Positions 151-64,000 of a stretch of 64,000 nt of DNA are shown piece after piece. A program made the position numbers and the translations under genes. The stretch lies in the NCBI GenBank assembly GCA_933207985.1, contig OW240921.1, positions 2,223,466 to 2,287,465 of the forward strand, in the 5' to 3' direction. Position 1 is the stretch's first letter. Each line of letters opens with the position of its first letter. Source of the DNA: Pelobates cultripes. Taxonomy: Eukaryota > Chordata > Amphibia > Anura > Pelobatidae. The notes below the pieces were generated by a model. The model did not search any database. It was not told the DNA's origin and saw nothing but the letters and a program-made list of their open reading frames with translations.

Positions 151-1050
151 AACATATAATTTTAAATACAAAAAAGAAGGAAAGTGACTGGCGCTTACAC
201 AGTAAAACAGGAGCACAGTTGGAGTGGAAAGGGTGTTCCCCAACACCCTAAAATCAAGTAATAGAAAAAGGTACTAAAAGCAACAAGTGCCAAATACACA
301 CACCACTCCCTGTGTATCAAAACAGGCAATAATAATACTTATACATGTACAGGTACATATAGGAGATGGTCCATATAAAAACCTATAAAGATAAAAAATA
401 GTACATAGTATAGCCTGTATATACAAAAGAAGGAAATATGGAAGTGATTGAATACACTCACGAATTTCAGAGCCGTGCCAGGCTCTGTATATGGTGCCCA
501 AGGGTGCCTCAGAAGGCTCTGTGGAAAATCTTGAATAATATCCCCCAGAAGTAGGAAAAAACAGCAGCAGAAGGATGAATAAAAAATTTATTGTAAGTAA
601 AAATTAAAAATTAAAATAGTAACTGTGCAGGTCCCATATGGTGACACACAGAATCACAGTCATGCAGACGCGTTTCAACTCAGTCCGAGTTTTCATCATG
701 CACTGTAAATTTTTTATTCATCCTTCTGCTGCTGTTTTTTCCTACTTCTGGGGGATATTATTCAAGATTTTCCACAGAGCCTTCTGAGGCACCCTTGGGC
801 ACCATATACAGAGCCTGGCACGGCTCTGAAATTCGTGAGTGTATTCAATCACTTCCATATTTCCTTCTTTTGTATATACAGGCTATACTATGTACTATTT
901 TTTATCTTTATAGGTTTTTATATAGACCATCTCCTATATGTACCTGTACATGTATAAGTATTATTATTGCCTGTTTTGATACACAGGGAGTGGTGTGTGT
1001 ATTTGGCACTTGTTGCTTTTAGTACCTTTTTCTAAAACATATAATTTTAA
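151..1050 (-). mobile_element. Foldback retroelement copy with hammerhead-like core (copy 1)
   Basis: Two long arms, about 262-590 and 706-1035, are near-perfect reverse complements around a loop of roughly 115 bases. The whole unit is bracketed by a 15-base direct repeat, aacatataattttaa, at 151-165 and 1036-1050. Between the left repeat and the left arm is an unpaired tail (166-261), A-rich at its edge and containing tggcgctt; read on the minus strand this is the T-rich 3' end. Such a direct repeat is what target-primed reverse transcription leaves, so the palindrome probably arose during retrotransposition (5' inversion or snapback cDNA). Sense is taken as minus because the loop carries a hammerhead-like motif in that direction, followed by aataaa. 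Best guess is a nonautonomous Penelope-like or retrozyme-type element; the family name is inferred. Both arms encode the same 75-residue open frame, a by-product of the palindrome. Confidence 0.75.
656..706 (-). ncRNA. Hammerhead-ribozyme-like motif in loop of foldback copy 1
   Basis: On the minus strand these 51 bases fold as a type I hammerhead. The outer stem pairs acagtgca with tgca-tga-ctgt, leaving tga as a bulge. Then follow tgatga, a perfect 5-bp stem aactc/gagtt with loop ggact, gaaa, a very short acgcgt stem III, and the expected cleavage site after gtc. Minimal stem III is known for hammerheads of Penelope-like elements. The invariant C before tgatga (C3 in standard numbering) appears missing, so this copy is probably inactive. 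The motif position and stems are read directly; cleavage ability is not known. Confidence 0.6.
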
Positions 1051-1062
1051 CCAGATAAATTG

Positions 1063-3216
1063 GACACACAGTAACAGAGGGATTGAGAGCCTTGTTCAGT
1101 GAGGTTACATGTTAGAGGGAGTGGGGTATAGTGACACAGTAACAGAGGGATTGAGGGCCCTGCTCAGTGAGTTTACATGTTAGAGGGAGTGGGGTATAGT
1201 GACACAGTAACAGAGGGATTGAGGGCCCTGCTCAGTGAGTTTACATGTTAGAGGGAGTGGGGTATAGTGACACAGTAACAGAGGGATTGAGGGCCCTGCT
1301 CAGTGAGCTTACATGTTATAGGGAGTGGGGTATAGTGACACAGTAACAGAGGGATTGAGGGCCTGCTCAGTGAGTTTACATGTTAGAGGGAGTGGGGTAT
1401 AGTGACACAGTAACAGAGGGATTGTAGGGCCCTGCTCAGTGAGTTTACATGTTAGAGGGAGTGGGGTAAGTGACACAGTAACAGAGGGATTGAGGGCCCT
1501 GCTCAGTGAGTTTACATGCTAGAGGGAGTGGGGTATAGTGACACAGTAACAGAGGGATTGAGGGCCTGCTCAGTGAGTTTACATGTTAGAGGGAGTGGGG
1601 TATAGTGACACAGTAACAGAGGGATTGAGGGCCTGCTCAGTGAGTTTACATGTTAGAGGGAGTGGGGTATAGTGACACAGTAACAGAGGGATTGAGGTCC
1701 CTGCTCAGTGAGTTTACATGTTAGAGGGAGTGGGGTATAGTGACACAGTAACAGAGGGATTGAGGGCCTGCTCAGTGAGTTTACATGTTAGAGGGAGTGG
1801 GGTATAGTGATACAGTAACAGAGGGATTGAGGGCCTGCTCAGTGAGTTTACATGTTAGAGGGAGTGGGGTATAGTGACACAGTAACAGAGGGATTGAGGG
1901 CCCTGCTCAGTGAGTTTACATGTTAGAGGGAGTGGGGTATAGTGACAGTAACAGAGAGATTGAGGGCCCTGCTCAGTGAGTTTACATGTTAGAGGGAGTG
2001 GGGTATAGTGACACAGTAACAGAGGGATTGTGGGCCCTGCTCAGTGAGTTTACATGTTAGAGGGAGTGGGGTATAGTGACACGGTAACAGAGGGATTGAG
2101 GGCCTGCTCAGTGAGTTTACATGTTAGAGGGAGTGGGGTATAGTGACACAGTAACAGAGGGATTGAGGGCCTGCTCAGTGAGTTTACATGTTAGAGGGAG
2201 TGGGGTATAGTGACACAGTAACAGAGGGATTGAGGGCCTGCTCAGTGAGTTTACATGCTAGAGGGAGTGGGGTATAGTGACACAGTAACAGAGGGATTGA
2301 GGCCCTGCTCAGTGAGTTTACATGTTAGAGGGAGTGACACAGTGACAGAGGGATTGAGAGCCCTGCTCAGTGAGTTTACATGTTAGAGGGAGTGGGGTAT
2401 AGTGACACAGTAACAGAGGGATTGAGGGCCCTGCTCAGTGAGTTTACATGTTAGAGGGAGTTGGGTATAGTGACACAGTAACAGAGGGATTGAGGGCCCT
2501 GCTCAGTGAGTTTACATGTTAGAGGGAGTGGGGTATAGTGACACAGTAACAGAGGGATTGAGGGCCCTGCTCAGTGAGTTACATGTTAGAGGGAGTGGGG
2601 TATAGTGACAGTAACAGAGGGATTGAGGGCCCTGCTCAGTGAGTTTACATGTTAGAGGGAGTGGGGTATAGTGACACAGTAACAGAGGGATTGAGGGCCT
2701 GCTCAGTGAGCTTACATGTTAGAGGGAGTGGGGTATAGTGACACAGTAACAGAGGGATTGAGGGCCTGCTCAGTGAGTTTACATGTTAGAGGGAGTGGGG
2801 TATAGTGACACAGTAACAGAGGGATTGAGGGCCTGCTCAGTGAGTTTACATGTTAGAGGGAGTGGGGTATAGTGACACAGTAACAGAGGGATTGAGGGCC
2901 CTGCTCAGTGAGTTTACATGTTAGAGGGAGTGGGGTATAGTGACACAGTAACAGAGGGATTGAGGGCCTGCTCAGTGAGTTTACATGTTAGAGGGAGTGG
3001 GGTTTAGTGACACAGTAACAGAGGGATTGAGGGCCTGCTCAGTGAGTTTACATGTTAGAGGGAGTGGGGTATAGTGACACAGTAACAGAGGGATTGAGGG
3101 CCTGCTCAGTGAGTTTACATGTTAGAGGGAGTGGGGTTTAGTGACACAGTAACAGAGGGATTGAGGGCCCTGCTCAATGAGGTTACATACTAGAGGGAGT
3201 GGGGTAAAGTGACACA
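1063..3216. repeat. 68-bp minisatellite, about 32 copies
   Basis: Tandem units of 66-68 bases run without interruption. Each contains gtgacacagtaacagaggga, then ttgagggcc(c)tgctcagtgag, ttacatgttagagggagtgg and ggtata. Variants are mostly single-base changes, a ggcc/ggccc length difference, and a few short deletions (for example near 1949 and 2335). No unit has open coding potential of note. High identity between units suggests recent expansion or gene conversion. It ends about 190 bases before the NIDO exon at 3407, so it lies in the intron downstream of that exon or beyond the gene. Confidence 0.97.
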
Positions 3217-4597: not shown

Positions 4598-5147
4598 TCT
4601 ATACATTCATTTCAAATAAACAAAAAAAATATAGCTGGCGCTCAAAGAAAAGACAAAGGTGCTACTACCTCACCCCAAGTATACTGTCACTCAAATATAC
4701 TTAAAGAATTCAAAGAGAAACAAATACATCATATACAGGTTCTTCTTACAGTATATAACAAGGAAGACCCTTTGTAGGGATGAAACGCGTTGTCTTTTAT
4801 TATTTAATAAATATTCATCATTTTGAATCTTGGAGTTCCTGATTTCTGGTTTCATTATCGGGTTCCTGAATTCCTGGGAGTCTTAATCCTCCACAGCTCC
4901 ATCTGATATCCCTATTTGAGATGATATGCACTGCAAGTCATGAGCCGACTTCTAACTGGCTCTGAAAAGTGTGAGTTTATCCACCATCTATTCAGCATTA
5001 TACACACCTCATACAGGTTACGCTGTGTATCTTTGTTTGTTTCATCCAATACAACATTGTAAGGAATATCCTTGTTATTTACTGTAAGAAGAACCTGTTT
5101 TCTTTGTGTGCGCTTATCACCCTTTCCCATTCTTTCTTCTATACGTT
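4598..5147 (+). mobile_element. Foldback/hammerhead-type retroelement copy (copy 3)
   Basis: Flanked by tctatacatt (4598-4607) and tctatacgtt (5138-5147), an imperfect 10-base duplication (9/10). The left edge is A-rich followed by tagctggcgctc, matching the edge of copy 1 (tgactggcgctt). The right edge is T-rich after gcgcttatcaccctttcc, its inverted counterpart. Near the left arm end lies accctttgtagggatgaaac followed by gcgttg, which keeps the stem II hairpin, gaaa and short stem III of a hammerhead, but the preceding core (ggaaga) is degenerate. An aataaa follows about 30 bases later, as in copy 1. A segment around caggttcttcttacagta is repeated inverted at 5062-5097. Older and more diverged than copies 1 and 2. 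Confidence 0.5.
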
Positions 5148-6731: not shown

Positions 6732-7664
6732 TCAACCAGACATATCTTGAAAGGCATTTCTAACTTCTTGTACCGGGTTAGGTATGTATCTAGAGTATGC
6801 AGAAGACTTCCAGCGCCCTAGTGACTTGATAACATGTACTGGAATGTTTGCACTGGACGCTGTGGAGGCCGCCCCTATGCGGAAGGAGTGGCCCGAATAG
6901 TTAGCTGATTTTAGGCCTAGTTGTGTAAGTAGGGACCTGACGTGGGTCATGAAGGTGGTGGTAGTGAGTACCGAACCTTGTAGACAGAAAAGTGGTTGAG
7001 ATGGTGATGCTTTGAAATGCTGAGTATAGGTGTCCAGTAATGTGACGGGGCACCACACGTTGTGGGTAGGATAGTATCTAACCTCTACCGGGGGTGCGTG
7101 TTGATTGGTTTTGGAGTGATGCAGAGCTAAAATATAGTAATCCATGTGTTTCGTTAAGTGTGAATGAAGCAGAATGTGAGTGGACTGGGATGTGTTGATG
7201 GCGGTAAATTCTCTTGGTCTCAAGAAACCATAAAAAGCTACGTATATGGCGGTTTTTATAACAAGGTTTGTGTTGTTCGCAAAGGGTTTTGAATCTAGTA
7301 GGCTGGATAAATCCTTGAAGATATTGAAGTCTATAGGTAGCCTTTGCGCGGTACGTGGGGGTTCGGATCTCTGGATACCTCTAAGGATGTTTTTTATCTG
7401 GTAGGAGGACATGAAACTTGTGTTGTTTGGTTGTAATGTTAGCATGTGATGTTGTATGCCTGTCAGATATAGCTTGATTGTGTTGTAAGATAATTTAAGT
7501 TTGAGGTGGCAAAAAGAAGCAAAACCTAACAAAGATGTCATGATGAAAGGTTGTGTGACGTTGTGCAGTGACAGGAATCTTTTAAATAGAAGGAAAGCCC
7601 TGTCATATGTTCTCCGGGTATTGGTGGACAGTGCTAATTGTGCCAATGTCCTGCTATGTTGCAT
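6732..7664 (-). CDS. DIRS-type tyrosine recombinase
   Basis: A 310-residue intact protein that would recombine the circular cDNA of the element into a target site, replacing the integrase of LTR elements. The N-terminal part (about 1-100) is the core-binding SAM-like region. The catalytic domain shows box I arginine in GFLRPREF (R149), the H-x-x-R motif in GHSFRIGAAS (H259, R262), a tryptophan in GRWKSSAYSRYI (W285) at the second histidine position, and the nucleophile tyrosine Y293 (Y290 is a less likely alternative). Length and motif spacing are typical of the family. The ATG lies only 8 bases after the stop of the upstream RT ORF, suggesting reinitiation or frameshifting on one transcript. 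All key residues are present, so the enzyme could be active. Confidence 0.93.
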   Translation of the reverse strand: MQHSRTLAQLALSTNTRRTYDRAFLLFKRFLSLHNVTQPFIMTSLLGFASFCHLKLKLSYNTIKLYLTGIQHHMLTLQPNNTSFMSSYQIKNILRGIQRSEPPRTAQRLPIDFNIFKDLSSLLDSKPFANNTNLVIKTAIYVAFYGFLRPREFTAINTSQSTHILLHSHLTKHMDYYILALHHSKTNQHAPPVEVRYYPTHNVWCPVTLLDTYTQHFKASPSQPLFCLQGSVLTTTTFMTHVRSLLTQLGLKSANYSGHSFRIGAASTASSANIPVHVIKSLGRWKSSAYSRYIPNPVQEVRNAFQDMSG

Positions 7665-7672
7665 AATAGCTT

Positions 7673-10417
7673 CTAGTCCATGACTAGCTGGTGGAAAGGT
7701 GGAGTGGTCGTGGCTGTACGTGCGGCTGACGGAAGTATTTGCCGAAAAGCCTGAAAATTGAAACGAGACAAATTGTCAGCAGCCGTGTTACAAACACCTG
7801 GGACATGGACACAAAACAAGAAGAAATTATGGCATGCAGCCAGCCAGGTGAGTTTCCTCAAGAACCTCATAATGGTCAGTGACTTGGATCGGCCTTTGTT
7901 TATGATGTGGCAGGTAGCTTGGTTGTCTGAGTGGCAACGTACTGACGAACCTGCCCATAGATGCCCCCATGTCACGGCAGCTGCCACAATGGGATACATC
8001 TCAAATAGAGCTGAGGTAGTGGAAAACCCTTCCAGGTCCTGTACCTCTGGAGGCCAGCTACCCCAAAGCCATTCATTCCCGTAAATTGCTGCAAAACCTG
8101 TGGTAGACGCCGCGTCTGACCAGATGGTAGGTGAGGAGTCAGACAATTTAGGGAGAAACATGCTTTTCCCATTCCAGGTGGTCAAAAAGTTTCTCCACAT
8201 AAGTAGGTCTGCCGTGGCTTGGGTATCCAGTGGTAACCTGTGTGCATCATGTCTAAACAGTGGGAACATGGTTAGGAGCCGTGAGATGAAAGCCCGGCCT
8301 TGAGGTATAATGCGCATGGCAAAGTTCAGTGACCCAAGTAGAGACTGCAATTCTTTGCGATTGCAAGTACCGAGGTGTATGTAGAGGTTAATGTTGGTGA
8401 GAATGTTCTCTATCTTGGTGCGTGGCAGGCTGGCTTGCATGGTGGCTGAGTCTAGCATGATTCCCAGAAAGGTGATGACTGTATCTGGTCCTTCAGTTTT
8501 GGTGGGGGAGACTGGAACACCCACCTGTTTAAAAAGACTGATGGTTTCTATGAGGCTACTGGGAGGGGAAGTGTTCTCTTCGATCAGTAAGAAATCATCC
8601 AGGTAGTGTATAACTGTAGGGCATCTGGCTACATTTAATAATAACCAGCATAATGTTTCGGCGAATACGTCGAAAATGGCCGGACTACTTTTTGAACCAA
8701 ACGTTAGGCGTGAGAAAAAGTAGTAGTGCCCGGCCCACTTAATGCCATGCAGGTGCCATAGTGTAGGGTGGATAGGCAATAATTTGAAGGCATTTGTAAT
8801 GTCAGTCTTGCTGAGCCATGCTCCGACCCCTGCCTGCATGATAGCTGTAATGGCGTGATCTATGGTGGAGTATTGAAGTGAAAATTCCTCAGAGGGGATA
8901 AGGGAGTTCAGACTAGGTGAGGCAGAGGTGTGAGGTGCAGACAGATCGATGATAAGTCTTTGTTTGTGGGAAGATTTCCCTGTGACAATACCGATGGGGT
9001 TTGTCCGCCATGTGGAAAAAGGAGGGGACTGAAAGGGTCCCAATAGGAAGCCCTCTGCCACTTCTTTGGCTATGAGTGTGCTAACCGCTGTAGGGTTTTG
9101 TTGTGCAGATTGTAAATTAGGACATTCAAGGATTCCTGAAGGCATGTGTATGAGACCAGTATGGAATCCTTGTGATAGACCAGTGATGATGAAGTCTACC
9201 AAATGTCTAGATGGATGTCGTGACAGTAATGCCGTGAGTACAGAAATATTTATCTCAGTTAAGTATTGCTTAGGGTACATTTTATTTGGACACATGGTTT
9301 TCGCATGTGCCCTAAAACATTTTGAACATATATGCAATAACCGACAACCGCTGTAATTACATGCACCGACATTGAAATTATTACATATTTGGGACTTCCC
9401 CAAAAACTTGATAGGTCGACCCAGTTTGTCTTTGGGTGTTCTCTCTGCTGACACAGCGGAGCTAGTGCCCTGCGAGGTGGTAGGTTCGTTCGCAGTGGTC
9501 GGACAAAAATTGGCAGTATGAGCCATGGAGGAGCAGTGTGCACAGGCCGGTGCTCTTAGACCTGCAAAGTGCCTGCAAAATATGATCGTATCAATCTTAC
9601 TCCAGTTGGACCTTGTCCCGTACTGTGAGAAGGCGCCAGACACTTTGGCAGAAAAGGATCTATGGTAGTCATAGAAAGCTGACCCACCATATTTGTTGCC
9701 CAGATCAACCAGCCTGTGCATATATAAGTCAAACTCCTCACGTCTGTGGGGATATACCGTACAGACCACATCCCGATAAATGCCAAAAGCTAATACAAAT
9801 TCTGGAATGGTTAGCTTCCTATTTAATCGTGCATCCCTGGATTTGACCACCACAGAAATATCGTCATAAGCGTAGGTCTTATGTTCCACTATATCCTGGG
9901 AGGCAATTAGTAGTGAGGCCAGATTGACATCTTTACCTTCCAGGATATCTCTCCTGAGGTGCTCAGGAATCATGTGGGCAGGGTAAACTTCTTGGTCATC
10001 CGAGGTGATAGCTGGAGAAACTGATTGCGACTCCACCACTGATGGGGGAATTGCCGTGGCCGGTCCAGCCATAGTGAGGGCTGTAGTGACCGATTCAAGT
10101 TTCTCCAGCCTAGAATTGACCTTGCTCATGGATGTCATGAGGGACGTGAGCATGTCATGTATGTTTCCTGGGTGGGACTGGCTCGACCCTTCCCCAGCGT
10201 CCACGTTATCGGTTGAGGTGTGTAATAATTTGTAAAGTTCCGCTTTCCTTGCTGTTGCTGGAAAAGGGATTTGTCGTCTCCTGAGTTCGCTAGTGATACG
10301 AGGGATAGTCCATGATCTGAAAGATGCTGGACTAGCCGTATCTTCCTCCTGTGATGGGGTGTTTGTTCTAGCCGGAGTCCTTGGGATGGAGAAATCCTCT
10401 ACCCCTTCTTGAGACAT
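7673..10417 (-). CDS. DIRS-type Gag-like/reverse transcriptase/RNase H polyprotein
   Basis: A 914-residue uninterrupted ORF. Residues about 34-66 (TIPRITSELRRRQI and RKAELYKLL) resemble a SAP DNA-binding helix pair. Residues 145-305 form a Gag-like region with CAHCSSMAHTANFC near its end. A second Cys/His cluster lies at about 345-376 (CNNFNVGAC, CSKCFRAHAKTMC). The reverse transcriptase spans roughly 440-655, with catalytic Asp in LSKTDITNAF (D539) and the YLDD box (605-608). The RNase H region follows, with IWSDAAS (D768), FEMYP (E806), CHSDNQA (D831) and NTAADNLSR (D881). Gag and RT are fused in one frame here, whereas some relatives split them. Start chosen at the first ATG giving an acidic N-terminus before the SAP-like segment. 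Expected to copy the element RNA in the cytoplasm or nucleus. Confidence 0.92.
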   Translation of the reverse strand: MSQEGVEDFSIPRTPARTNTPSQEEDTASPASFRSWTIPRITSELRRRQIPFPATARKAELYKLLHTSTDNVDAGEGSSQSHPGNIHDMLTSLMTSMSKVNSRLEKLESVTTALTMAGPATAIPPSVVESQSVSPAITSDDQEVYPAHMIPEHLRRDILEGKDVNLASLLIASQDIVEHKTYAYDDISVVVKSRDARLNRKLTIPEFVLAFGIYRDVVCTVYPHRREEFDLYMHRLVDLGNKYGGSAFYDYHRSFSAKVSGAFSQYGTRSNWSKIDTIIFCRHFAGLRAPACAHCSSMAHTANFCPTTANEPTTSQGTSSAVSAERTPKDKLGRPIKFLGKSQICNNFNVGACNYSGCRLLHICSKCFRAHAKTMCPNKMYPKQYLTEINISVLTALLSRHPSRHLVDFIITGLSQGFHTGLIHMPSGILECPNLQSAQQNPTAVSTLIAKEVAEGFLLGPFQSPPFSTWRTNPIGIVTGKSSHKQRLIIDLSAPHTSASPSLNSLIPSEEFSLQYSTIDHAITAIMQAGVGAWLSKTDITNAFKLLPIHPTLWHLHGIKWAGHYYFFSRLTFGSKSSPAIFDVFAETLCWLLLNVARCPTVIHYLDDFLLIEENTSPPSSLIETISLFKQVGVPVSPTKTEGPDTVITFLGIMLDSATMQASLPRTKIENILTNINLYIHLGTCNRKELQSLLGSLNFAMRIIPQGRAFISRLLTMFPLFRHDAHRLPLDTQATADLLMWRNFLTTWNGKSMFLPKLSDSSPTIWSDAASTTGFAAIYGNEWLWGSWPPEVQDLEGFSTTSALFEMYPIVAAAVTWGHLWAGSSVRCHSDNQATCHIINKGRSKSLTIMRFLRKLTWLAACHNFFLFCVHVPGVCNTAADNLSRFNFQAFRQILPSAARTATTTPPFHQLVMD

Positions 10418-12077
10418 GCTAGATTACAAAGTATATGGTTAGCGTAAAAACCCCCGAGGGGATGTACTGGCAGGCTAATTATGCCGGATGAGGCGAAAAA
10501 TTAAACTTGTTTTTTTTTTGGTGACAGGTGAGGCCCTGCTAGTTGCCAAGTGGCTATGAGAGGCTCTATCTATGCGTTGGCGCGAGGGGTTATTGAGGCC
10601 ACCCGACATAGTGGCAGGAATTCGTAGGCCTCTCGGTGACAATACAAGAAAACAGGGGAAGGGAGTGACAGGTGGCACCCTCTCTATAATGCGAGGCGGC
10701 TAACTCACGTGTGGCCCGGGGGGCATTACCTCCGAAACGTTGAGGCGGGGTGTTGGCCTCGCGGACCACTAAACGATAGGCAGAATGCCCGGAGGGGGGA
10801 TACCTATTTGGGCCTATAACCCCTAAAATTGCCAGTACTCTATGTCCTAAGTAGAGGAGGAGCCATATGTGATGTATGGCGTGAGCAGGCTTAACGTACC
10901 TGGTAGTATGTATGCGTTTGATAAGCGATAGGTAGAGAAAACTGGAAAAAACCTAAAGGGATAGAAAAACCCAAATATGATAGTGTGAGAATTGGATCCT
11001 ATGATACCAATTTAGACTAGTTAGTTGTGATGAGTTCTAGTAGTACATATGGAAGGGGAATACATGAATGATATTGGCCCGACTGGCCCTGTATGTGGTA
11101 TGGTAATCATGCTTGGGGTGTGTATGATATGTCTCTTATGGTGACAAGATTAATGTGTATGATATAGTAATGCTAGTGTTTGTAGTATAATAAGGTGCAG
11201 GATTTAAAACAATACCGTATATGTTAGGCCGTAAACGTAAGCCATGAAAAGAGGTAAGTACGAGGTACAGGAATATTTGAGAAATTATCCCAAATTAGGA
11301 AACAACGTGACGTATGAGTGGTTGAATCAAGACGTGTGATTCAACCCGAAAGTTTGTGAGATTTTATGAGACCGTGTTCTTGTGTACTTGGTATGTCGTT
11401 TGAGTACACAAAGAAAAAGTCAGAATATATAAGTGCCATGTAAGAAACGTGAGTACATGGTATGATAGAAACGTAATTTCTAAACATAATTTATAACGTA
11501 AATCCTACAAGAGATATCTGTAAAATGTAAAAGCTTGTCTAAGCTTAACTCCATAAATATATGTATATAACATGAAGAATTTCAATAAAACTTTAATAAT
11601 GCCATATCTGCTAACAGATTGAACCATAACCTAAATAAATACTTATTTATAAGTAGTTAACAGGGGTATTGCCCCAGTCATATGCAAGGATTTCGTAATT
11701 TGCATAAAATAAATAACAGTAATAACATGAAACCAACTATAGCTGCTGATATGCAGAACAAGTTTGCTTAATACAAGAAAAACCGAAACCGATATGCCTG
11801 CCGGCAGCAAAGGGGTTAATATGCCTGTGACTTGGCCGTAAAGCGTGTGGCCGTAAAGTAAGGCCGTTTTAAATCGCGACGCCGTGGGAAATGATCCGGG
11901 CGACGGACTTACGATTTTGAAGTCCTGTGGACTTAATCTGCGACGAAAACACCGGGTATGTGCGTGGCTGAACGGGCGGAAAACCTGTAAGGATTCCTGG
12001 ACACAGCTACACCAAACGAAAACCGCGGGTTTTTGAAAAGCAAGATGGCGCCGTACGTGAACCGGAAGTGGATTCTC
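10418..12077 (-). other. Leader/5' noncoding region of DIRS-like element
   Basis: About 1.66 kb between A1 and the first ORF, with only short open frames and no recognised domain. It probably holds the promoter and untranslated leader. A poly-T run at 10510-10519 is the only simple sequence. Confidence 0.6.
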
Positions 12078-12987: not shown

Positions 12988-13659
12988 TTTTGAAACCGAA
13001 CCTATTATAAAACCTGTGGGTTTTTTTTAAAAATAGACAAATTGTCAGATTGCACCAGAAACTCTGTCACTCTGTCTGAAACAACAAGAGTTGGTCGATA
13101 AATTGTTCGACTTTTCAATAAATGTTGGCCAACCGTAGAAGATATCCCAGTCGGTTAAAATACTTTATCGGGATTTGGCAAAAATAAAATCAGTGATTCT
13201 TTATATTTCCGAAGTTTAAAATACTGTAATAAGAGCTATGTACACTTATCAACCACAGCATTAAAACCTATTTGGCACCAAACATGGGTTTAAAAGACAC
13301 ACTTATCATTCTGTGGTCACATCACCTAAGGTGATCCATTGAAACGTGTTGTGCTGCTTGTGGACACTATATGGTGACAGTTTTTATACCTCCATGAAAG
13401 GTTTTTATTACTTTCTGTTTTCAATAAATGTTTTCGATACTTATGTGATGTATCCTGCCTTTCTTCTGCTTTGTCTCTGAGGAGAGAGTTGCTGCTACCC
13501 TGCATCCAGCCTCCAGTGTCACACTCAAGTTTATTTACCTGAGCCAGTTAGAGGAACAGGCTCAATAAAATGTGAGTGTGATACCAACTTTTACCATAAC
13601 TATCAATTTTAAGTAAAACTGTGCTGTACTACCCTTTGAGAGTTTTACTGTTTCTTATA
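12988..13659. other. Unassigned sequence with a weak hammerhead-like trace
   Basis: No gene seen. At 13321-13355 atcacctaaggtgat forms a hairpin followed by ccattgaaacgtgttg, with aataaa about 80 bases later. This is the same order as in the foldback elements (hairpin, gaaac-g-gt, polyadenylation signal). The conserved ctgatga part is not visible, so this could be a decayed fourth copy or chance. Confidence 0.25.
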
Positions 13660-14230
13660 TTTTCAGGAACATACACTCTCCCAACATTACTTTCTCACTA
13701 GATACACATGGTGTATATGATGATTAAACTTGGGGTTTTTCTGGTATTTTGCACTGTTCACTTGTTTTCATTGCTCCATGGTCCAGTGCGGATGCTCACA
13801 TCTCCATGAAAGGCACTTTCCAGCATTAGACGTCCATTACCCTGAAGCTAGATTGCTGGTTATCCTTCCTTGCACCACTATTGGTAGGTACTAACCACTG
13901 CATACCGGGAACGTCCCACAAGACTTGCCATTTTGGAGATGCTCTGACCCAGTTGTCTAGCCCAGTGGTCCCCAACCCAGTCCTCAGGGACCAGCAACAG
14001 TCCAGGTTTTGTCAGTATCTCCATTTGAATTAAAAAAGGAAATACATAAATCCTGGACTGTTGGTAGTCCATGAGGACTGTGTTAGGGACCACTGGGTTA
14101 GCCATCACCATTTGGCCCTTTTTAAAGTCACTCAGATCTTTTAGCTTGCCCATTTTTCCTGCTTTTATCAACACATGAAATTCAAGAACTGACGGTTCAC
14201 TTGCTGCCTAATATATCTTACCCTATGACA
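13660..14230 (-). pseudogene. Tc1/mariner transposase relic, N-terminal part
   Basis: On the minus strand the start around 14150 reads MGKLKDLSDFKKGQMVMA and, after an inserted MITE, continues RQLGQSISKMASLVGRSRY. This is the helix-turn-helix N-terminus of a Tc1-like transposase. Further on, about 13760-13800, a trace of the catalytic-domain region (ALDHGAMKT in another frame) can be seen. Most of the about 340-residue enzyme is missing or shifted, so this is a dead, heavily deleted copy. Terminal inverted repeats were not identified with certainty, so the limits are approximate. Confidence 0.7.
13963..14095. mobile_element. hAT-type MITE inside the Tc1 relic
   Basis: A 133-base element with terminal inverted repeats starting cagtggtccccaac and ending ...agggaccactg; the arms (cagtcctcaggga, tccaggattt/cctggactgtt) pair over much of their length. 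Flanks gtctagcc and ggttagcc are an imperfect 8-base target duplication (6/8), the size hAT transposases make. It interrupts the transposase frame, so it is younger than the Tc1 copy. Confidence 0.7.
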
Positions 14231-41756: not shown

Positions 41757-44700
41757 TTATCCCAAATCGGTAAGGTGTGTATACGTAGTTTCCCATCCAT
41801 GCCATTGTCCGTTGAATTTGGTCATATTCCCTTTTTTTGCCCATTCCTTTTCATAGCAATATGTAATGTTTATTCTGTTCAGCAATTCTTTTGCTGAGGG
41901 TATAAAGTCACTTTTCCAGTGAAATGCTATACATAGTTTGGCCGCGATCAAAGTGTTAATTACAGCTGCCATCGAGGGGAGTTGGTTCAGGTTTGGTAGT
42001 AGATGAAGCAGGTAGAAATCAGGCCGTAGGGGGAGTTGTAAACCAGATATGGTGTGAATAACATTCTTTACGTAGTTCCAAAAAGTACCTAACTTGGGGC
42101 ATTCCCAAAAAATGTGTAATACTGTACCCCTTCCGCTATTGCACCTCCAGCATGTAGGGGCAACCGTAGGATATATTTTGCTCAGCCTATTGGGTACTAA
42201 ATACCATCTCATTAATACCTTGAAGTACGCTTCCCATAGAGTGACACATTTGGTGGATTTTTTGGTAGTTTTTATCGCTGATAGCCAATCTTTAAGGTGA
42301 AATTCCGCACCTAAATCTTTTTCCCAGTTTAGCATGTAAGGTAATTTATCCTCTTTGGATGTGTTTAGCAGGGCTAGGTAGCACATTGAAAGGAATTTCG
42401 GTGGAGTACGAAATTTACTTATATTATAGCAGGAGTGACCTATTGAACTGAATGTCGAAGGGTCTTGATATTTTATAGTTGCAGTGTGCAGTATGTGCTT
42501 GACTCTCAAGTAGAGGAAGATATCCTTGTGTGGTAGGTTATGAGAGGCTTGTAAGTCAGGAAAGGTGCGGAGGCCGTTGGAGTTATACAAGGAGTAGACA
42601 TGGGTTAAGCCTTGTTGAGACCAATTCTGTATCGACAAATCTGGTGAAATCATAGACAAGGCTCGTATTGGGGCCAAGTAGAGAAGTTCCTGATTGGAAC
42701 AGAGGTTTGAGCTCCACCTTTTCCAGGAGGTCAGAAGGAATTTTGTGCATGGCAATGATAGGTGGGAAGGACAATTTTTTGTGGCCCACATAGCGTCGGA
42801 TAGTGAATGGAGTTGGCTACATGCCTGTTCAAGTTTAAGCCAAACTGGATTGGCTTTTTCTGACATTATGTCCAGGCTCTGTGCAAGCGTGGAGGCTTTG
42901 TAGTAGTTAGTGATGTTAGGAACACTCAGGCCGCCTTGATGAATGGGGCGCCATAGAGAGTGAGCCGCGACTCTCGGAGGTTTTCTTTTCCAAATGTGCG
43001 CGTTGATTGTTGATTGGAATTTCGTAAGAATCGATTTGGGAAGATTGATAGGTAGTGTTCTGAAGAGATAAAGAATATGAGGGAGCGCCATCATTTTAAC
43101 CGAATTCACTCTGCCTATCCAGGAGGTGTTCAATTTGTCCCAGGATTTCAACTGGTTGGAAATTTTCAATAGGACTGCCTCATGATTTTCTTTTATAGTG
43201 TGAGAGTGCGATAGCGTAAGTTTGATACCTAAATATGTAACAGAAGTTTTGCGCCAATCAAAGGGGAATTGTGATTTCAATTTGGCTGTTACATGGGACT
43301 CAAGGTTCAGAGGAAGTATTTGTGTTTTACTGATATTGTTTTTATAAAAAGACAAGTTGCCATATGTGGCAAGAGTATGCATGAGATGGGGTATGGCAGA
43401 AACTGGGTTAGTTAAAAAAAGAATAACATCATCTGCAAATAAAGCAAGCTTCTTTACTCCTGCTGGTGTGGTAAAGCCTGGGAGTGAGGGATCTTGTTTA
43501 ATTGTACGAATGAGAGGCTCTAAACATAAAATAAATATGAGGGGGGATAAGGGGCACCCTTGCCTCGTGCCGTTTGAGATATCAAAGCTTTTAGATAAGA
43601 ATCCTGAATTGAGAACTCTCGCTGATGGCGCGGAATAAAGGGCCAAAATGCTCATGATAAAGGAATCTGAGAATCCATAGGCTTGTAGGGTGGTCTTCAT
43701 ATATGTCCAGTTTAGGCGATCGAAGGCCTTTTCTGCGTCCAAGGCCATTAAGACCCCGGATATACGTTGTCGAGATGCCCAATTGATGAGGTCCATGCAA
43801 AATCTGGTGTTGTCACCTACCTGCTTGCCAGGCACGAAACCTGCTTTTTCTTCCGAGACCAAGGTAGACAGCGAAGATTTCAGTCTGGTGGCTATAAGTT
43901 TTGCATAGAGTTTCACATCAGCGTTCAGCAACGAAATTGGTCTTAGATTACCACATGTTGTGGGTGGTTTATTCGGTTTGGGTAGGGTAATAATGTATGC
44001 TTCTAGCATAGTTCTAGGGAAGCGGCCAGTTTCTTTTATTTTATTAAAAAGCTTGGTAATGTGCGGAGATAGGTATGGTTCTAGTTTAAGATAATAGTAA
44101 TTCGGAAGTCCGTCTGGGCCAGGGGCTTTGTGCTTAGGGAGGGATTTGATGGCCGCAGCAACCTCGGATTCCGTAAACGGGGCTGTGAGCAAATCATTTT
44201 GTTGCTGTGAGATTTTTGGCAGTTGTATTTGTGCTAGAAAATTTTGAATTTCTATTTTGTCTGGAGTGTACGTATTCTCGTTTGCGTTCAGGTTGTATAG
44301 ATCCTCATAGAAAGATGCTAGTTCATTCACTATATCGGTGGGGTTATATATTTTTATCTGTGATTTTGAGAGAATATATGGGATTTTTGTTTGAAGATAT
44401 TTGGACTTCAACTGACTTGCTAACAATTTACCGGCTTTGTTGCCCGTGCCATAAAAGTGTCGTTGAAGTTTTGCTGCATTCGTGGTGAATTCTTTGATCT
44501 TAAGTTTTAGAATCTCTTCGCGTGTTGCTGTAATTTGCTTTGTCATGGTACGGGAAGGGGTTGCTTTGTTGGCGTTTTCCAAGGTCGTGAGCTTCTGGAG
44601 CAATTTTTGTTGTAAATTATGAGATTTCTTCTTGTTGATTGATCCTAATTTGATAAATTCACCCCTGACCACCGCTTTGTGAGCGAGCCATTGGGTTTCT

Positions 44701-45559
44701 ATTGAGGTCTCATTTGTAGTGTTGGTTTCGAAATAGTTTTGCAGTTCGCGGGCAGTCTTCTCTAAATTTGAAGGTGTGTCAAGAATGGACTCATTTAATC
44801 TCCATTTTCCACGGCCTCTCGTAGGGTAAGGCACTGCTATTGTGATAATTATTGGGGCGTGGTCTGACCAGGTTCTGGTCCCTATCATTTGATCTAGAAG
44901 GTGAGGCAATGTAGATTTATCTATCAGGCAGATATCTATCCGGGTATATGTTAAGTGGACCGGGGAGAAATAAGTGAAGTCCTTAGCCGCTGGGAACAGG
45001 TTCCTCCATGTATCGTAAAGATCGTACGAAAAAATGAGATTGGAAAATAATTTACTGTTATGGAGGGTTAGTTTGCTAGGCTTTTTACCGTTGGTACGTT
45101 GAACGTCTAATGCAGGGTCTAGTGTGCAGTTGCAGTCGCCGCAAATTATAACATGACCTTGTTTTAGTGAGGAGATTTTCTTTATGGCTTTATTGAGAAA
45201 GGAGAATTGAGCCTCATTTGGTGCATATAAGGATGCTATCGTCACTTGGATCCCGTTAGGTCTCCCACTATGATTAACAATCTTCCGCTAGGGTCTGCAT
45301 GTTGTGTAGTAGGGGTGAATACCCAGTCTGCATGTAGTAGAATGGCTACTCCTTTTGATTTGTTTGGCGCGTAAGCATGGTAAGCTATGGGGTATCTGGA
45401 GGACCGTAGTTTAGGAGGATTTTTCTTACAAAAATGAGTTTCTTGAAGGCATACTATAGCGGCATTGGAGTCATGCATGTCTCTTAGAACTTGTCTTCTT
45501 TTATACGGGCTGTTGAGGCCTTTGACATTGAGAGATAAAATTTTCATCGTGTTAGCCAT
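41757..45559 (-). pseudogene. L1 ORF2: endonuclease, reverse transcriptase, zinc knuckle (one frameshift)
   Basis: The first frame (45559-45242) carries the endonuclease start MKILSLNVKGLNSP and CLQETHF. A one-base loss at about 45246-45250 shifts to the main 1162-residue frame, which continues with IASLYAPN, GDCN (residues 36-39) and WSDHAP (126-131), completing the endonuclease. RT follows: HKAPGPDGLP, NLRPISLLNADVKLYAKLIA, catalytic D503 in ALDAEKAFDRL, GTRQGCPLSPLIF, the FADD box at 603-606 and YLGIKL. Near the C-terminus is the CCHC knuckle CWRCNSGRGTVLHIFWECP. Apart from the frameshift there are no stops, and all catalytic residues are present. The enzyme nicks target DNA and primes cDNA synthesis from the nick. 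Confidence 0.94.
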
Positions 45560-62721: not shown

Positions 62722-63717
62722 TTACATTTTAACATAGGACCCCTTATTTGATAGCGGCTTCACAAGTCTTGCATCCATTGAACTTGTGAGTTTTTGGACA
62801 GTTTCTGCTTGAATCTGTTTGCAAGATGTCAGAATAGCCTCCCAGAGCTGCTGTTTGGATGTAAACTGCCTCCCACCCTCATAGATCTTTTGCTTGAGGA
62901 TGCTCCAAAGGTTCTCAATAGGATTGAGGTCAGGGGAGGATGGAGGCCTCACCATGACTTTCTCTCCTTTTATCCCCATAGCAGCCATTGATGCAGAGGT
63001 ATTCTTTGAAGCATGAGATGGTGTATTGTCATGCATGAAGATGAGTTTAATACGGAAAGCATAGTTCTTCCTTCTGTACCAGGGAAGAAAGTGGTCAGTC
63101 AGAAACTCCACATACTTGCAGATGGCATCTTTACACCTTCTGGGCCCCTAAAGGGGCCGACCAGCTCTCTTCCCATGATTCCGGCTCAAAACATGACTCC
63201 ATCAATGCCTTGCTGACGTTGCAGCCTTGTTGGAATAGGGTGGCCGTCCACCAACCATCCACTACTCCATCCATCTGGACTATCCAGGGTTGCATGGCAC
63301 TCATCAGTGAACAGGACTGTTTGAAAATTAGTCTTCATGTATTTTTCTGCCCAATGCAGCATTGGTTAGTGGTGGCTGAATAGAAGGTTTATGCACAGTT
63401 GCAAGACTCTGGAGGACTCTACACCTTGATGTCCGTGGGACTTCAGAGGCACCAGCAGCTTCAAATATCTGCTTGCTGCTATGTAATGGTATTTTAGCAG
63501 CTGCTCTCTTGATCTGATGAATGAATCTGGCAGAAATCTTCCTCAATGCGCCTTTATCTGCACTAACCCGTCTGTGCTTTGAATCAGCCACAGATTTCTT
63601 AATAGTGCGATGATCACGCTTAAGTTTTTGTGAAATATCTAAGTTTTTCATACCTCGTCCAAGGCATTGAACTATTTCACTCTTTTCGGCAGAAGAGAGA
63701 TCCTTTTTCTTCCCCAT
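62722..63717 (-). pseudogene. Tc1/mariner transposase, frameshifted
   Basis: The N-terminal frame (63717-63328) has the paired-type helix-turn-helix domain: MGKKKDLSSAEKSEIVQCL, ISQKLKRDHRTIKK, then the second DNA-binding part. The middle (about 63328-63111) is in other registers and includes TDECHATLD with the first catalytic Asp, and MFWAGIMGREL. The last frame (63111-62722) gives FMHDNTPSH (second Asp) and SPDLNPIENLW (Glu). Counting from that Asp to the Glu leaves 37 residues between, so the signature is DD37E rather than DD34E. Total length is about 330 codons, normal. Frameshifts make this copy inactive; terminal repeats could still be mobilised by a related enzyme. Confidence 0.9.
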
Positions 63718-64000
63718 ATTGCATGCAATTGGTGCTCTGCTTAATAATGTGGAACACCCTCCATTTGTAGTTTTTCCTTAAATTGGGCTCACCTGGCAAT
63801 CTAATTATCACAGGTGTCCGAGATTGTTTTCAGTGATCAAAAGAGCCCTGAGACACAATGCCATCCATGAGTTAAACTGAAAAACAAAATATTTAACCTT
63901 TGAGACACTTAAATAGAATTTGCATAATAATTTGGAACAGGGTATATAGCTGTTATATTACATACATGATATTGCTCTATTATATTACATTATATATTAC

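Follow-up and report, generated by a model that had tools for sequence, protein, structure and literature searches.

Poseidon of Anolis carolinensis (PAc) is a Penelope-like element (PLE) with a GIY-YIG endonuclease and a hammerhead (PMC11167929), and the element of the frog Pelobates cultripes described here resembles it in both. The available portion of the PAc study describes two adjacent reverse-transcription starts with a tail that is the stretch between them, AT-rich targets and the use of uncleaved RNA as template, and all of these have their likeness in the frog. It also describes this lizard element cleaving and extending both target strands in vitro, from two adjacent starts, which supports the two-ended reading favored below; for the frog, the same two-strand cutting and extension is inferred from the genome. 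However, no start-site difference between the strands was seen in vitro, according to that portion, which counts against a two-ended rule, and the later insertion steps are left open there (PMC11167929). One further difference concerns position. In PAc the hammerhead and the start of the ORF overlap, with initiation 111-118 nt into the ORF (PMC11167929, same portion), whereas the frog starts are ~95 nt apart and lie upstream of the ATG (624 in the map copy).

The Penelope families of the rotifer Adineta vaga provide a second comparison. As in the frog, their pseudo-LTRs (pLTRs) are direct and inverted, the latter head to head, and they have target duplications (8-10 bp in the cases seen there) and an optional tail on one of the inverted pLTRs, although this tail is 31 bp long and that of the frog element ~95 nt (PMC3846280, available sections). 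These sections explain the rotifer structures by self-priming, probably on an antisense template, whereas the frog structures are explained here by two-ended priming on sense RNA. Hammerheads have also been described in amphibians. Those of Xenopus tropicalis are repeat-associated, a likeness in another frog that is drawn by description only (PMC3088659, in part), and the retrozymes of the axolotl share with the frog element a type I hammerhead with a weak stem III. However, axolotl retrozymes are short tandem monomers that spread through circular RNA (PMC7229834, in part), and tandem monomers were not seen in the frog loci.

The window, as we call the whole 64,000-nucleotide stretch of P. cultripes DNA analyzed, carries one insertion of interest at 150-1050 (copy 1). 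The target duplication on its two sides, AAACATATAATTTTAA (150-165 on the left, 1035-1050 on the right), is 16 bp long and exact. Inside are two cDNAs of a pLTR in opposite orientations. One, on the minus strand, begins at the long reverse-transcription start (166) and extends as far as the hammerhead (705). It is 92-100% identical to sister pLTRs (mostly 96-98%), and its outer end at TTCTTTTTTGTAT is the same as in sister insertions. The other, on the plus strand, runs from the short start (1034) inward to 706, is 98% identical to the map copy and ends on the outside at GTACCTTTTTCTA, like the short ends of sister insertions. The two meet head to head at 705/706, where ~6 bases (703-708) fall outside both matches to the map copy. 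The stretch common to both forms the arms, 262-590 and 706-1034, each of 329 nt, which pair at 328 of 329 bases; the sole mismatch is 372 C versus 924 T. Two minus-strand pieces are left unpaired. The tail between the short and long starts (166-261, 96 nt) is present on one side only, and the loop (591-705, 115 nt) is the portion of the long-start cDNA beyond the reach of the other cDNA. The original prediction, a near-perfect palindrome with ~330-base arms inside an exact 15-base target duplication, is therefore confirmed for the palindrome and for the exactness of the duplication, but not for its length.

A long near-perfect palindrome alone would permit a fold-back DNA transposon or an assembly artefact. 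We give these next to no credence. The outer ends are not mutual inverted repeats, with 96 nt of tail on one side only, a 16-bp duplication is present, and sister insertions of the same architecture lie elsewhere in the genome. The tail is supported by sister pLTR matches, which stop at query 434-464 or 536-540, with one exception (246) in the rearranged locus L027. Other readings of the stretch were rejected. A 125-aa ORF (645-1022) had no family in Pfam and no homologue in homologue searches, and was discarded as a protein on that account. As for a tRNA-derived SINE, ARAGORN found no tRNA in the window and thus no tRNA-like head, although a degenerate head would escape it. An array of ~32 copies of a 67-bp repeat (1066-3216) starts ~15 bp past the right target duplication.

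The loop had also been said to have, on the minus strand, the arrangement of a type I hammerhead, and the order of the parts is as claimed. The minus strand reads TGCA-TGATGA-A-AACTC-loop-GAGTT-GAAACGCGTC-TGCA (657-702), a hammerhead-like arrangement with TGCA/TGCA as stem I and AACTC/GAGTT as stem II. However, C3 is missing and there is one extra A ahead of stem II, so that the window copy holds a remnant and not an intact hammerhead; its predicted cleavage site would be 667/666. A first, stricter descriptor did not match the loop motif. A relaxed descriptor, written after the motif had been seen, matches it and nothing else in the window, and finds a mean of 0.07 matches per window shuffle (n = 150) and one match in 5000 loop shuffles. 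The core folds as RNA at -14.4 kcal/mol (z -2.0), which 7 of 200 shuffles equal, and the corresponding parts of two older relatives (copies 2 and 3, see below) fold no better than shuffles. The proposed Rfam check was negative, and no hammerhead family matched the window or the loop, even with 141 bases searched at E up to 10. This says little about the window, because Rfam (E up to 1) also found no hammerhead in the five sister loci tried, where C3 is intact. Weak C/D-box snoRNA matches in Rfam (sR30, 17.2 bits against a cut-off of 38) were taken as chance. The exact core was not found in IMG/VR, and a degenerate hammerhead pattern occurred in no viral and two bacterial contigs, again taken as chance.

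What happened to C3? All 28 matched sister hammerhead heads have a C before TGATGA, i.e., C3 (loci L013-L042, with a pattern that required TGATGA and with L028 omitted as the same place as L036). These putative sister hammerheads have CUGANGA, GAAA, UH at the predicted cleavage site and stems I and II, but in them too an extra A precedes stem II, and stem III has no more than 2 bp. In the window copy the loss is seven bases from the internal junction 705/706, and the long-start cDNA stops at map position 31, inside the hammerhead. The best reading is that C3 was lost through damage at a joined end. Elsewhere, any cDNA extending as far as the 3' region has passed the predicted cleavage site, which the cDNAs of L015 (minus) and L018 (plus) traverse twice. 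Therefore, uncleaved RNA was the template there, as reported for PAc in the available portion of that study (PMC11167929). At L051:894-947 the short-start cDNA match begins at the base following the predicted cleavage site. Its fusion there to a piece from the ORF start would suit a template jump caused by the end of a cleaved RNA. One such case is too few to claim cleavage in vivo from cDNA ends.

Two older relatives lie in the same window. Copy 2 (4612-5137, plus strand) is inverted, with arms at 4735-4764 and 5069-5098 (29 of 30 paired), GAAACGCGT at 4782 and an imperfect duplication (4598-4611/5138-5151, 12 of 14 bases) that 11 of 2000 random zone pairs reach. Copy 3 (13327-13783, plus strand, limits approximate) has a single orientation, GAAACGTGT at 13341, GAGCC..GGCTC..GTGAGT at 13541-13577 and no reliable target duplication. 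GAAACGYGT occurs at four places in the window. Three of them (676 minus, 4782 plus, 13341 plus) have GAGCC..GGCTC..GTGAGT within 110-240 nt downstream on that strand; the fourth (22779 minus) is without this module. Searched for by itself, the module matches the window four times, including once in each arm of copy 1, and is absent from 100 shuffles. By itself GAAACGCGT is at chance level (4 matches with one mismatch, 3.3 expected) and is informative only with the downstream module. The relatives have hammerhead, T-rich stretch, GAGCC hairpin and tail in this order. This is therefore the natural order, to which the arm at 706-1034 was added. A GCGCC tail at the right end of copy 2 has weak alignment support (48 and 61 of 2000 shuffles as good). 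A comparison of the two outer ends of copy 2 gave no significant alignment (equaled by 386 of 2000 shuffles), which counts against the two-ended reading favored below. The hairpin loop of copy 2 (4942-4963) resembles the reverse complement of that of copy 3 (13541-13563; AGTTAGA), as if the GAGCC..GGCTC hairpin had been flipped between them.

Other repeats in the window include a DIRS-like element on the minus strand (6732-10423) with an RT ORF (PF00078) and an ORF with a below-cut-off phage-integrase match, and Tc1/mariner-like transposase pieces, also on the minus strand (62722-63777, DDE_3 in 62722-63147). A LINE ORF (41757-45287) has its best relatives in Leptobrachium leishanense (closest 46-49% identity) and other frogs. 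A hairpin with 57-nt arms (13954-14104), on which weak miRNA-family matches also fall, is presumably a hAT-type MITE, judging by its appearance.

As the sister copies indicate, the window palindrome is a short piece of an endonuclease-bearing PLE. The window copy itself holds the pLTR only, with no GIY-YIG. Its sequence at 591-1034 has at least 82 matches in the 3.09 Gb assembly (40 of 456 candidates scored), and a 30-base pattern close to the short end is found 63 times at up to 3 mismatches. Full sister copies read pLTR, ORF, GIY-YIG, 3' region, pLTR. The GIY-YIG family PF01541 (cut-off 22.6) is matched weakly, just above cut-off, at L015:1747-2082 (22.9 bits) and L017:5455-5790 (22.8 bits), and scores 17.5 bits, below cut-off, in L018:3114-5540, so that two of the three copies scanned exceed it. 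No Pfam RVT_1 or RT domain was matched in the long ORFs scanned; the text LPKIHKD..GRPIVSG in the ORF of sister copies may come from a PLE-like reverse transcriptase. The pLTRs are both direct and inverted, with an optional tail and a target duplication, as in PLEs. Their 3' ends fall at a short site, AGTACCTTTTTCTA, spread over about 20 nt, or at the long site given above, which in full copies continues into the ORF. In the map copy the starts lie near 480 and 575, upstream of ATGGAATTATTT (ATG, 624), and are ~410 and ~510 nt downstream of the predicted hammerhead cleavage site.

The copies turned up by the genome search that the original prediction proposed have the same order and tail, C3 being intact in the sisters, and they bear out its target-primed retroelement tied to a hammerhead. 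Of its alternatives, "retrozyme- or Penelope-type," the ORF with GIY-YIG supports the second. The first, a non-autonomous hammerhead element spread via circular RNA, would explain the hammerhead, and type I hammerheads that perform best as dimers have been described in amphibian retrozymes (PMC7229834, in part). However, the fetched loci contain no tandem hammerhead monomers, sister copies have an ORF with GIY-YIG, and cDNAs continue through the hammerhead into the upstream 3' region. A retrozyme is thus highly improbable.

The outer ends of the insertions follow a pattern. In all 16 resolved two-cDNA insertions with a target duplication, one outer end is short and the other long. The first ten are the window copy, L013, L014, L015, L016, L017, L029, L030, L037, and L038 (10/10), and the further six are L043/L044, L045, L047, L051, L058, and L059 (6/6), of which L047, L051, L058, and L059 were read base by base. 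L052, an inverted duplicate of L051, was left uncounted. The long piece of L051 is ~18 nt and was recognized by eye; without L051 the count is 15/15. If ends were independent and equally likely, the chance of 16/16 would be 0.5^16 = 1.5e-5 (by hand). Single-cDNA insertions with a duplication use either site, four the long (L034, L041, L053, L063) and four the short (L040, L055, L060 and L033/L049, counted once, with a duplication of only 7 bp). The duplication words found by scripts are 10-18 bp; random flank pairs have at least 10 bases in common in 3 of 600 cases and at least 12 in 1 of 600.

Outside the 16 are L018, L019-L028, L031-L032, L035, L036, L039, L042, L046, L048, L050, L054/L061, L056, L057, and L062. 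L019-L028 and L031-L032 have a single end in the fetched stretch, are rearranged or have no duplication. L018 has two short-type ends and no duplication was found; it would break the rule if it is one insertion. L027 has one end within the pLTR, and L048 has one end in the 3' region. At L023 (G000:C5:159193000-159195600) and L032 (G000:C5:159275500-159278000), short and long PLE ends face outward ~82 kb apart and share a 13-bp word, CAATGTCCGACTT, as a target duplication would; the interval may be nested insertions or captured DNA. The literature searched contains no statement of a one-short, one-long rule, although key hammerhead and PLE papers lie outside its coverage and the rule may be in print.

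Does one cDNA copy the other? The original prediction had the cDNA fold back on itself, i.e., a single target-primed cDNA snaps back, self-primes and copies itself into a hairpin. The window arms, which differ at 1 of 329 sites, permit this when taken alone, which is a point against the two-ended reading. The loop and arm geometry fits as well, and self-priming is favored for inverted PLE repeats in the available sections of the rotifer study (antisense template; PMC3846280). However, sister insertions contradict it. In L047, L051, and L059 the two cDNAs come from separate stretches of the element, and therefore neither can be a copy of the other. In L015 the partners differ at 6 of 63 shared polymorphic sites, against 0 of 44 and 2 of 52 for the nearest other insertions. 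In L017 each cDNA is nearer the cDNAs of other insertions than its partner, but by a small margin. On these comparisons self-copying fails for L047, L051, and L059 and is unlikely for L015 and L017, although later gene conversion could mimic some of the allele differences. Nor is a copied long-start cDNA expected to stop at the short start, yet every one of the 16 pairs is short plus long. Snap-back is therefore an unlikely account of these insertions. This does not make the templates random. Partner cDNAs are discordant at 16 of 310 shared polymorphic sites versus 85 expected for random templates, and most insertions therefore had related or identical templates. They are from the same subfamily, and perhaps from the same locus or the same tandem RNA.

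Another possibility is that an older inverted PLE locus gave rise to a palindromic RNA, which then underwent ordinary one-ended target-primed reverse transcription. Inverted pairs of PLE loci do exist. However, head-to-head junctions fall at different element positions in different insertions, which are therefore not copies of one source palindrome, and the BLAST maps of the fetched loci show no second case of the window junction 705/706. We consider this source very unlikely. At the junctions the two cDNAs, judged by BLAST ends, share at most 5 nt or are separated, mostly by 0-6 nt and in L038 by 18 nt. A hairpin at L013:2162-2291 that is matched by Rfam miRNA families spans the head-to-head junction of L013 (2214-2217) and is a product of its own two cDNAs. 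In two opposite-orientation pairs, L020/L031 (C4) and L051/L052 (C14), the members are separated by ~20 and ~72 kb. Both members of a pair have the same outward flank, which in L020/L031 is shared for 20 bases past the element end and differs thereafter; the pairs are either inverted duplications or assembly duplicates.

Very probably, then, cDNA synthesis on PLE RNA is primed by both target strands, each using a different one of the two starts, and the two products are joined head to head. In this scheme the enzyme would cut both target strands ~16 bp apart, as the duplication suggests. Each 3' end would then prime reverse transcription on PLE RNA. The short start would serve one strand and the long start, ~95 nt further 3', the other, as suggested by the outer ends, which are short and long in every resolved pair, the window copy included. 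Both cDNAs would extend toward the RNA 5' end, stop at unrelated places and be united by end joining, and whatever both had covered would become the palindrome (329 bases in the window copy). There, the long-start cDNA would have stopped in or beside the hammerhead core, hence a loop hammerhead without C3. Snap-back would be unnecessary, and the two templates could be separate RNA molecules or different units of a single tandem RNA.

The element itself is a variant of known PLEs, and the insertion rule is the interesting part. The two-ended reading fits the in vitro PLE data and opposes the published self-priming account. For PLEs in general, we think it rather probable that integration is two-ended, with the two RNA starts assigned one per target strand and no part for snap-back. 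The mode of PLE insertion and the frequent inversion with a one-ended tail are left open in the available parts of both studies (PMC3846280, PMC11167929). Here, a young family with clean target duplications allows both ends of every insertion to be scored from the genome. If true, a single rule would account for inverted pLTRs, the optional tail on one side, variable truncation and palindromes alike. The one-short, one-long rule is also a simple prediction for any PLE genome or in vitro system, and it would tie the two in vitro start sites to the two DNA strands.
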